This document shows positions 7,835-42,156 of a DNA stretch of 64,000 nt, piece after piece. The DNA is from Roseovarius sp. (lineage in GTDB: Bacteria; Pseudomonadota; Alphaproteobacteria; Rhodobacterales; Rhodobacteraceae), in contig NZ_JAUCYU010000001.1 in assembly GCF_030373445.1 (NCBI RefSeq), positions 620,001-684,000 of the forward strand. Reading direction: 5' to 3'. A program made the position numbers and the translations under genes. Within the stretch, counting starts at the first letter, position 1. Each line of letters opens with the position of its first letter. The notes beneath the pieces are model-generated. The model searched no databases. It was not told the DNA's origin and was given only the letters and a program-made list of their open reading frames with translations.

Positions 7835-7850
7835 GAAAACCGGCAAATCA

Positions 7851-8030
7851 AAAGGGCCGCCCCGGCAAGGAAGCGGCCCTCTAGAGTTGTAGGAGGCGGT
7901 GCGGTTAGGCGCACCAATCCGGGGGCGTCACACGCCCAGGGGCTGCCCTAGACGAGACCCTCCCGAACTGTTCCGTCACCTCTCTCCAATACCTCTATAG
8001 ACACTGGATCACCTCCTTTCAAAATGTTGC
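7851..8030 (-). ncRNA. Candidate small RNA / mini-mRNA with full-length Shine-Dalgarno and terminal hairpin
   Basis: Minus strand: AAAGGAGGTGATCC (8019-8006), GTG-started 18-codon ORF (8004-7948), internal hairpins GGGCG-TGTGA-CGCCC and GGTGCG-CCTAAC-CGCACC, terminator AGGGCCGC-N12-GCGGCCCT-TTT (7881-7851); 5' boundary is a guess. Confidence 0.5.
7948..8004 (-). CDS. 18-aa mini-ORF VSIEVLERGDGTVREGLV
   Basis: GTG start 7 nt after GGAGG of a perfect SD; TAG stop. Confidence 0.4.
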   Translation of the reverse strand: MSIEVLERGDGTVREGLV

Positions 8031-8075
8031 CGTTATCCACAGCCTGACACAGAATTTCGCTTTGTCAAAACAAAA

Positions 8076-8783: not shown

Positions 8784-9710
8784 CTATTCTGAGGTCAGCA
8801 CCGACACGCATTGCCCCGGCAGGTCGGCCATGGTCAGCTCGCGCCGCGGGTTGGGGCGCGGGGCGTTGGGGTCGGGCGGCGGCGGGTTGATGATGTTGTT
8901 CACCCATTCCTGCGCGTCGTCACAGCCATCGCCCGCCGGCGGCGCCGCCTGGTTCTCGCAGTTCTTGGCGCCCCGCGGACAGCTCAGCCTGACATGGAAA
9001 TGGTAATGGTGGCCGTACCACGGCCGGATCTTGCGCAGGTAGGAGCGGTCGCCCATCTCCTCCTTGCACATCCGCACCTTGGCGCCGGGGAAGACGAAGA
9101 TCCGCGCGGTGCGCGGGTCCTGCGCGGCGGCCTTGATGACCTCGTGATGCTGGCGCGTCCAGTTGTCATTGGTATAGGCCCCGTTCGCCCTGCGCAGCGA
9201 GATCGACGAAAGGTTCTCGCGCTCTGCCCGCGAAAGGTTCAGCCGGTTCGGCGGCAGCATCCAGATATCCACGTCGAGGCCGATCTGGTGGCTCCGGTGC
9301 CCGGTCAGCATTGGCCCGCCGCGCGGCTGGCTGATATCGCCGACATATAGGCCCGCCCAGCCCGGCTGCTGCGCCGCCTTGGCCGAGAGTTTCTTGATGA
9401 AATCGATGGTCTCGGGGTGGCCCCAGTTGCGGTTCCGCGACAGCCGCATCGCCTGCCATGTCGGCCCCGTCTCGGGCAATTGCACGCTGCCCGCCGCACA
9501 GCCCTTGGCATAGCTGCCGAACGGCGTGGGCGCCTGTTGCGAGCCCTGCGGCTTGGCCCCGAAGAGTTGTTTCGCCTCGACGCCCTGCATCGAGGCGGGA
9601 ATGCTCTGGGTCGAGAGGATCGGCTCACTCGCCGCATACTCCTGCGGCCCCGAGCCGCCACAGCCCGCAAGGCCGATGATGAGCGCGATCAGTTTGACGT
9701 GACGGACCAT
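8784..9710 (-). CDS. mepA: Penicillin-insensitive murein endopeptidase
   Basis: GPMLTGHRSHQIGLDVDIWMLPP and WYGHHYHFHVRLSCP motifs; lipoprotein-type signal. Confidence 0.95.
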   Translation of the reverse strand: MVRHVKLIALIIGLAGCGGSGPQEYAASEPILSTQSIPASMQGVEAKQLFGAKPQGSQQAPTPFGSYAKGCAAGSVQLPETGPTWQAMRLSRNRNWGHPETIDFIKKLSAKAAQQPGWAGLYVGDISQPRGGPMLTGHRSHQIGLDVDIWMLPPNRLNLSRAERENLSSISLRRANGAYTNDNWTRQHHEVIKAAAQDPRTARIFVFPGAKVRMCKEEMGDRSYLRKIRPWYGHHYHFHVRLSCPRGAKNCENQAAPPAGDGCDDAQEWVNNIINPPPPDPNAPRPNPRRELTMADLPGQCVSVLTSE

Positions 9711-31147: not shown

Positions 31148-31235
31148 TTTTGCTACCCTTCCAGATAAGCGCCCCTCGTTGGGGAGGGGTGTCCCACGGC
31201 AAGGGGTAAGACCCTTCGCGCGCCTTTGCAAGCGC
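31148..31235 (-). promoter_or_regulatory. Candidate structured serC 5' leader (serC-motif-like)
   Basis: Minus strand: AAGGG-TCTTAC-CCCTT (31216-31201), CCCCTC-CCCAAC-GAGGGG (31189-31172), SD GGAAGGG (31162-31156) directly before ATG. Confidence 0.55.
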
Positions 31236-38002: not shown

Positions 38003-38110
38003 TCCGCAAACCCGGCCCCCGATCACTGGCCCCGAACATTGGCCAGTGGCGCCCCGGCGCCCCTGGCCCCCCTTGCCTTCCCCCTCCGCTGGCCCTAGTT
38101 TCCAGCCTAC

Positions 38111-38202
38111 CTCGGGGTGCCCGTGGGCCAATGGCCCATGGGCTGAGATGCCACCGGCAAACCCGTTGAACCTGAACCGGCTAGAACCGGCGGAGGGAAG
38201 GT
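38111..38202 (+). ncRNA. TPP riboswitch (THI element)
   Basis: CTCGGGGTGCC...GGGCTGAGATG...ACCCGTTGAACCTGAACCGGCTAGAACCGGCGGAGGGA directly upstream of thiB. Confidence 0.95.
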
Positions 38203-38247
38203 AAAGGTCGCATCCGCCCTTGCCCTCGCGCCGCAAAGGAGGATGAC

Positions 38248-41879: not shown

Positions 41880-41960
41880 GGGGTGCTCCTTTCCATCATC
41901 GACACTTCTCACCCAAGGCGCAGGACGACGGGAAAGGCAGGGGCAGACCCCTGAAACCCG

Positions 41961-42107
41961 GCGTTCTCTTCCATCCGGACTGTCACCGTCGGCTCCGGAA
42001 TCGCACCGGATCTGCTTGACCACCGAAGCCATGAAGCCCCGGTGCGCTCGCGGGCTTGGGGCAGGCGCCCCTTACCGCCGGTGGGGAATTGCACCCCGCC
42101 CTGAGAA
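41961..42107 (-). ncRNA. FMN riboswitch (RFN element)
   Basis: Minus strand: CAGGGCGGGGTGCAATTCCCCACCGGCGGTAA...AGCCCGCGAGCGC...CAGATCCGGTGCGATTCCGGAGCCGACGGTGACAGTCCGGATGGAAGAGAACG. Confidence 0.95.
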
Positions 42108-42156
42108 CGTGGTCGATGATGTTGGAAAACCGCCCTTGCGGCAAGCCCCGAAATAA

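Follow-up and report, generated by a model that had tools for sequence, protein, structure and literature searches.

Known small RNAs with related features

Long Shine-Dalgarno (SD) sequences near the RNA 5' end occur in the stabilising leaders of Gram-positive bacteria (cry3A type), in which the boundaries of an open reading frame (ORF) are not conserved. The element studied here lies in a window of 64,000 nucleotides (the whole stretch of DNA that was analysed) from a Roseovarius genome. It shares the long 5' SD with these leaders but differs from them by the conservation of a whole structured RNA and of ORF boundaries. Small RNAs with a short translated ORF are also represented by the dual-function sRNAs, e.g., SgrS/SgrT and rnTrpL/peTrpL of Sinorhizobium, of which rnTrpL is leaderless (PMC10117765). 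However, their peptides are functional, whereas the peptide of the window element is unconstrained and its SD is far longer. The sRNAs with CCUCC anti-SD motifs, i.e., SmelA075/A099 (PMC3927594) and SisA-D of Caulobacter (PMC12559287), carry the motif in exposed loops and target mRNAs. Elements of the Rhodobacteraceae type also hold an internal CCUCC, but in the predicted fold of the window element it is paired with its own SD. The likeness to 6S RNA is one of concept only, that of an RNA which would use mimicry to engage a central machine of gene expression; the target is a different one and there is no relation in sequence or structure.

Relationship to RF01867

In the searchable literature, RF01867 (Caulobacter sRNA CC2171) is represented by table entries only, with no SD, ORF or function given; the original Caulobacter survey (Landt 2008) lies outside that literature. 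The family is a table entry in an Rfam structure-refinement paper, and the Mesorhizobium sRNA MH_s33, assigned to it, is reported as transcribed, with a product of 215 nt from sequencing (PMC5596092). CcnA, CrfA, RusT and SisA-D were considered as possible Caulobacter names for the element and rejected, as none is described as such an RNA in its paper.

No family was named at the window element by Rfam at the gathering threshold. Below the threshold, the covariance model of RF01867 matched over its full length (model positions 1-159 of 159; E 1.3e-8) with 45.6 bits, compared with a gathering cutoff of 75 bits, and the element should therefore be regarded as a divergent homologue and not as a formal member of the family. 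The reciprocal model (R1) matched RF01867-type loci with E values of 1e-6 to 1e-11. An extended SD, or a one-change variant of it, together with a start codon was present in all of the 30 RF01867 loci examined from other alphaproteobacteria. These loci carry both features at the 5' end and also have a terminator, and the window element shares the 5' AAAGGAGGTGATCC and start codon with members above the cutoff. The Rfam cutoff recognised just 3 of 18 diverse loci, these being of the SHCH type, and the Sphingomonadales, Rhodobacteraceae, Phyllobacteriaceae and Gemmatimonadota elements among the 18 were unannotated at that cutoff. The lineage types named here (Rhodobacteraceae type, SHCH, etc.) are working groups sorted by ORF and not a phylogeny. 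The homology to a known Rfam sRNA family, an internal mimic that pairs with the SD and a covarying helix that encloses the ORF are all beyond the view of the first-pass annotation.

Extended SD and its complementarity to the 16S rRNA tail

A perfect 14-nt anti-16S SD had been proposed for the minus strand of this region. The match is confirmed and is in fact longer. With the closest relative G412 taken as the 16S reference (the 16S gene is absent from the window's own assembly), the complement is the 17-nt GAAAGGAGGTGATCCAG, because the 16S tail of G412 ends in ...GGCTGGATCACCTCCTTTCTAAGGA. The predicted duplex with 16S reaches about -31 kcal/mol, compared with -9 kcal/mol for AGGAGG, a good ordinary SD, and both the 14-mer and its 12-mer core AAAGGAGGTGAT occur only once in the 4.8-Mb genome. 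Its description as an extreme SD thus holds good: the sequence is strong and under selection.

Variation of the SD among relatives is mostly compatible with the 16S tail through G:U pairs; for example, a AAAGGAGGTGGTCC variant is common in same-genus genomes and keeps the pairing in this way. For the variant GGTGGTCC, a compensatory change in 16S was considered and rejected. The 16S sequence is still GGATCACC in G406 and G418, which both carry the variant, and the pairing is therefore made by G:U. A 16S fragment or pseudogene was also rejected as the origin of the element, since the match to 16S is limited to the 17-nt tail complement and the remainder is a conserved RNA.

Table 1. Positions in the window of the features of the element, in order along the minus strand
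Feature	Position	Strand	Basis or remark
TTGACA, candidate -35 of the sRNA promoter	8063..8068	-	invariant in 20/20 same-genus loci
Whole RNA as modelled	7850..8028	-	homologous to RF01867, full length
Extended SD, perfect complement of the 16S 3' tail	8004..8020	-	sequence match, duplex energy, conservation; 14-mer AAAGGAGGTGATCC at 8006-8019, then one base, then GTG 8004-8002
Start-codon hairpin UCCAGUGUCU/AGGUAUUGGA	7985..8008	-	minimum-energy and centroid fold
GTG-started 18-codon ORF	7948..8004	-	boundaries conserved, peptide not; TAG stop 7948-7950
P1 helix 5' arm (codons 3-5)	7993..7997	-	covaries with 3' arm across lineages; forms when SD is held open
Central GC-rich hairpin, stop codon in its 5' side	7914..7970	-	fold
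Internal 16S-tail mimic CGCCUCCU, pairing with SD 8010-8017	7891..7898	-	fold; enriched over shuffles, Rhodobacteraceae type
P1 helix 3' arm, just ahead of terminator	7882..7886	-	covariation; opened-SD fold
Terminator-like GC hairpin with short U-tract	7850..7881 (stem 7881-7852)	-	fold; compensatory stem changes in relatives

Distribution of the element

With a covariance model trained on 47 relatives, the element was found in 184 of 200 same-family genomes, sampled at one per genus, with a second or third match in a minority. Within the genus, a 231-nt block was present in nearly all genomes at 74-94% identity, and the exact 18-mer AAAGGAGGTGATCCAGTG occurred in 165 of 397 genomes of the family, with no match of the reversed control among those listed. 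Across the class, the AAAGGAGGTGRTCCNDTG pattern was recovered in 61 of 289 genomes drawn evenly over families. The exact extended SD with a start codon was found in 68 of 121 Alphaproteobacteria vs 0 of 178 other members of the phylum, both subtotals being hand-counted from a phylum-wide draw. Named loci came from Ruegeria, Gemmobacter, Sphingomonas, Novosphingobium, Mesorhizobium, Bradyrhizobium, Methylobacterium, Bosea, Brevundimonas and Inquilinus. The same combination was present in 7 of 121 Gemmatimonadota, which without exception start with TTG and have an ORF pattern in common. Some matches outside the class were discarded as chance, e.g., those in Flavobacteriaceae, which sit within a long reading frame.

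The conservation search that the first-pass annotation had suggested as a check thus shows SD and ORF kept in relatives, and the SD is not a chance feature because it is so conserved. As judged from these comparisons, the element is a real, single-copy small RNA gene that is widespread in Alphaproteobacteria.

Several divergent versions were seen. The Gemmatimonadota elements (L228-L230 and L233-L238) always start with TTG, mostly have 20 codons and use all three stops; most of them share GGCAAGCGATCGCC, which is able to pair with the SD and start region including UUG. At L156 (3530, minus strand; Rhodospirillaceae), the 16S tail is copied exactly over 11 nt inside the element (GGATCACCTCC), and this copy pairs fully with the element's own SD. 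In L218 and L219, from one alphaproteobacterial family, the extended SD stands ahead of an ORF of 54-57 codons with the look of a signal-peptide protein and not ahead of a short ORF. In the alphaproteobacterial L206 (1500, minus strand), it precedes a 39-codon ORF of another type, followed by a terminator-like hairpin. In a metagenome-assembled genome labelled Planctomycetaceae (L112, 4750-4924, minus strand), the Rhodobacteraceae-type model matched over its full length (E 1e-6) at a locus that has a 16-codon ORF and a terminator; transfer, a mislabelled contig or chance are all possible.

Boundaries and product of the short ORF

The GTG-started ORF of 18 codons, VSIEVLERGDGTVREGLV, which had been noted at suitable distance from the SD, was found as described and its spacing is normal. 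In 30 loci from sets found without a start-codon constraint, the start triplet was always ATG, GTG or TTG (14, 15 and 1 loci, respectively). The start and spacing statistics rest on such sets, found by model and by similarity, since searching by pattern biases these figures. All 20 same-genus loci have GTG, including 2 with a shortened SD. A stop occupies codon 19 in 49 of 51 Rhodobacteraceae-type elements (TAG 29, TGA 12, TAA 8), and TGG never occurs there in the 51 elements, though G is common at the last two positions of this codon. The stop likewise lies at codon 19 in 28 elements of Sphingomonadales, a set picked for 18-codon length.

No purifying selection on the peptide was detected by pN/pS in either the Rhodobacteraceae type or Sphingomonadales. 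The in-frame value for codons 2-12 of the Rhodobacteraceae type was 0.70, with no clear edge over the other two frames (0.76 and 0.79), and that of Sphingomonadales was 1.31; in reading these values, it should be considered that the sequences are related and that the codons are also under RNA-pairing constraint. Between orders, the peptides are unrelated. The ORF therefore shows, at the level of sequence, the marks of a translated frame whose boundaries look selected and whose product does not. Of the small-transcript gene that had been suggested, the discrete gene, the extreme SD and the selected ORF boundaries could be retained, while the functional micropeptide offered as one of its possible products is not supported.

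Gene neighbourhood and promoter

The element is flanked by yhhQ (PF02592) upstream and arfB (PF00472, RF-1 domain) downstream. In Rhodobacteraceae-type loci, yhhQ precedes the element in 50 of 62 and arfB follows it in 53 of 62, the latter on the same strand, mostly about 180-350 nt from the SD and soon past the terminator. The arrangement was found in 0 of about 130 loci in other lineages, and the neighbours differ between orders. The gene thus seems to be autonomous, and arfB is unable to explain the family. The proximity to arfB, which had been called suggestive only, is accordingly a true feature of the Rhodobacteraceae type but is absent elsewhere. The TTGACA upstream of the RNA is invariant in the genus and may be part of the sRNA promoter; a consensus promoter scan scored none on the minus strand.

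Elsewhere in the window, a penicillin-insensitive murein endopeptidase (PF03411, Peptidase M74) is encoded upstream of yhhQ (8784-9710, minus strand). An FMN riboswitch (41959-42112, minus strand), a TPP riboswitch (38103-38215, plus strand) and a serC leader (31148-31199, minus strand) are also present, all above the Rfam gathering scores.

RNA folding and the P1 helix

The predicted folding energy of the RNA between 8035 and 7850 is -86.4 kcal/mol, lower than in 200 of 200 dinucleotide shuffles (z -3.7). In both the minimum-energy and the centroid folds, the SD is held in a AGGAGGUG helix with the internal CGCCUCCU and the start codon lies inside a hairpin. The latter hairpin is without covariation support because its arms are nearly invariant in relatives. 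The terminator-like hairpin with a T-run that had been reported does exist as a GC hairpin, but its U-tract is short and it was not scored in a consensus terminator scan.

The long-range helix P1 joins codons 3-6 with the bases that immediately precede the terminator. The two arms change together between lineages, as in the pairs CATTGTC/GACAATG, CATGGT/ACCATG, AGTGAG/CTCAC, GAGAA/TTCTC and GAAAG/CTTTC. When arms were swapped between elements, the observed pairing energy was reached by 0 of 2000 permutations with all elements, by 0 of 3000 with one element per distinct arm, and by 17 of 3000 within the Rhodobacteraceae type, all of these permutations ignoring phylogeny. Sphingomonadales and Bradyrhizobium give no P1 signal of their own because the arms hardly vary there. 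No fixed-column covariation of P1 was seen in the SHCH lineage because its core is nearly invariant, and RNAalifold found little covariation outside the terminator in the Rhodobacteraceae-type alignment.

Compared with shuffles, internal complementarity to the ribosome-binding site was stronger in three types, with mean z values of -1.9 (Rhodobacteraceae), -1.6 (SHCH) and -2.3 (Bradyrhizobium), whereas Sphingomonadales showed no such excess. The SD and start codon were less accessible than in shuffles in 20 of 20 Rhodobacteraceae-type RNAs. Over the whole ensemble, two types alone, Rhodobacteraceae and Bradyrhizobium, showed an SD less accessible than in shuffles, and SD sequestration is the minimum-energy state in these two only; elsewhere the SD was as open or more open. 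For the window RNA, opening the SD is predicted to cost 7.2 kcal/mol, far below the gain from the 16S duplex (31 kcal/mol), and the opened RNA is predicted to refold into P1. A two-state behaviour is proposed for these reasons.

Possible functions of the element

The conservation of start and stop in an ORF whose peptide is not conserved suggests that ribosome engagement, and not the peptide, is the function. The reading preferred here, to which we give about an even chance, is that an autonomous structured RNA captures 30S subunits and is translated, and in this way reads out or titrates the available 30S. A free 30S subunit would pair with the SD and displace the internal mimic, upon which the RNA would adopt the P1 fold. 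Translation of the ORF would follow, with the ribosome terminating inside the RNA. The fold, the stability or the exposed CCUCC segment of the RNA could then shift with 30S engagement. Candidate outputs would be 30S titration, an internal CCUCC set free to act on mRNAs, or control over how long the RNA itself persists.

A ribosome bound at the 5' end would shield an RNA from 5' decay, as the stabilising SD does in some Gram-positive leaders. The element could accordingly be a conventional trans-acting, base-pairing sRNA in which the 5' SD and short ORF are mainly protective. The SD near the predicted RNA 5' end, the structured body with a terminator, which is typical of sRNAs, and the cataloguing of the homologous Rfam family as an sRNA are all in line with this. 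However, a stabiliser role requires neither a conserved start or stop nor 14-17 nt of pairing, and no conserved unpaired seed was recognised outside the ribosome-binding site, so we consider this explanation unlikely. A pure decoy, in which the SD sequesters small subunits, P1 blocks accommodation and translation is incidental, would fit the extreme predicted duplex strength and the beginning of P1 two codons past the start, where it would sit inside the initiating ribosome. Against it, a stop selected at a fixed position implies that elongating ribosomes reach the stop, and titration of 30S from a single gene copy would call for very high RNA levels; the decoy is less probable again.

The location of arfB downstream on the same strand in most Rhodobacteraceae-type loci could also point to a cis-acting leader, in which the state of the ribosome on the short ORF governs read-through into arfB. 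Since arfB is downstream in no other lineage, this could at most be a lineage-specific addition, and no alternative antiterminator pairing was seen; such a role is very improbable. The 18-residue peptide itself as the functional product has a slighter probability still. It is favoured by the conserved start, length and stop and by N-terminal residues conserved within lineages (VSR..LERGVGT; MSHGS), but the pN/pS values of 0.7-1.3 with no clear edge over other frames, as well as the unrelated peptides of different orders, argue against it. RNA pairing can account for the changes at codon 4, because this codon lies in the 5' arm of P1, an arm that covaries with the partner strand.

Returning to ribosome engagement, a more specific and rather doubtful extension would be a pan-alphaproteobacterial RNA, present also in some Gemmatimonadota, that takes the ribosome as its input. 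It would combine 14-17 nt of 16S pairing with an internal copy of the tail in some lineages, would be translated for no other purpose than to let the passing ribosome set its fold, and might serve to sense or buffer free 30S. The RNA is kept by nearly all sampled genera of the family and by much of the class, and its most conserved feature is the match to the mRNA-binding tail of 16S. The sole annotation found for it is that of an Rfam family which is uncharacterised and fails to cover most lineages. Should ribosome engagement indeed be its function, the element would act as a regulatory RNA on translation capacity, conceptually akin to what 6S RNA is for RNA polymerase.
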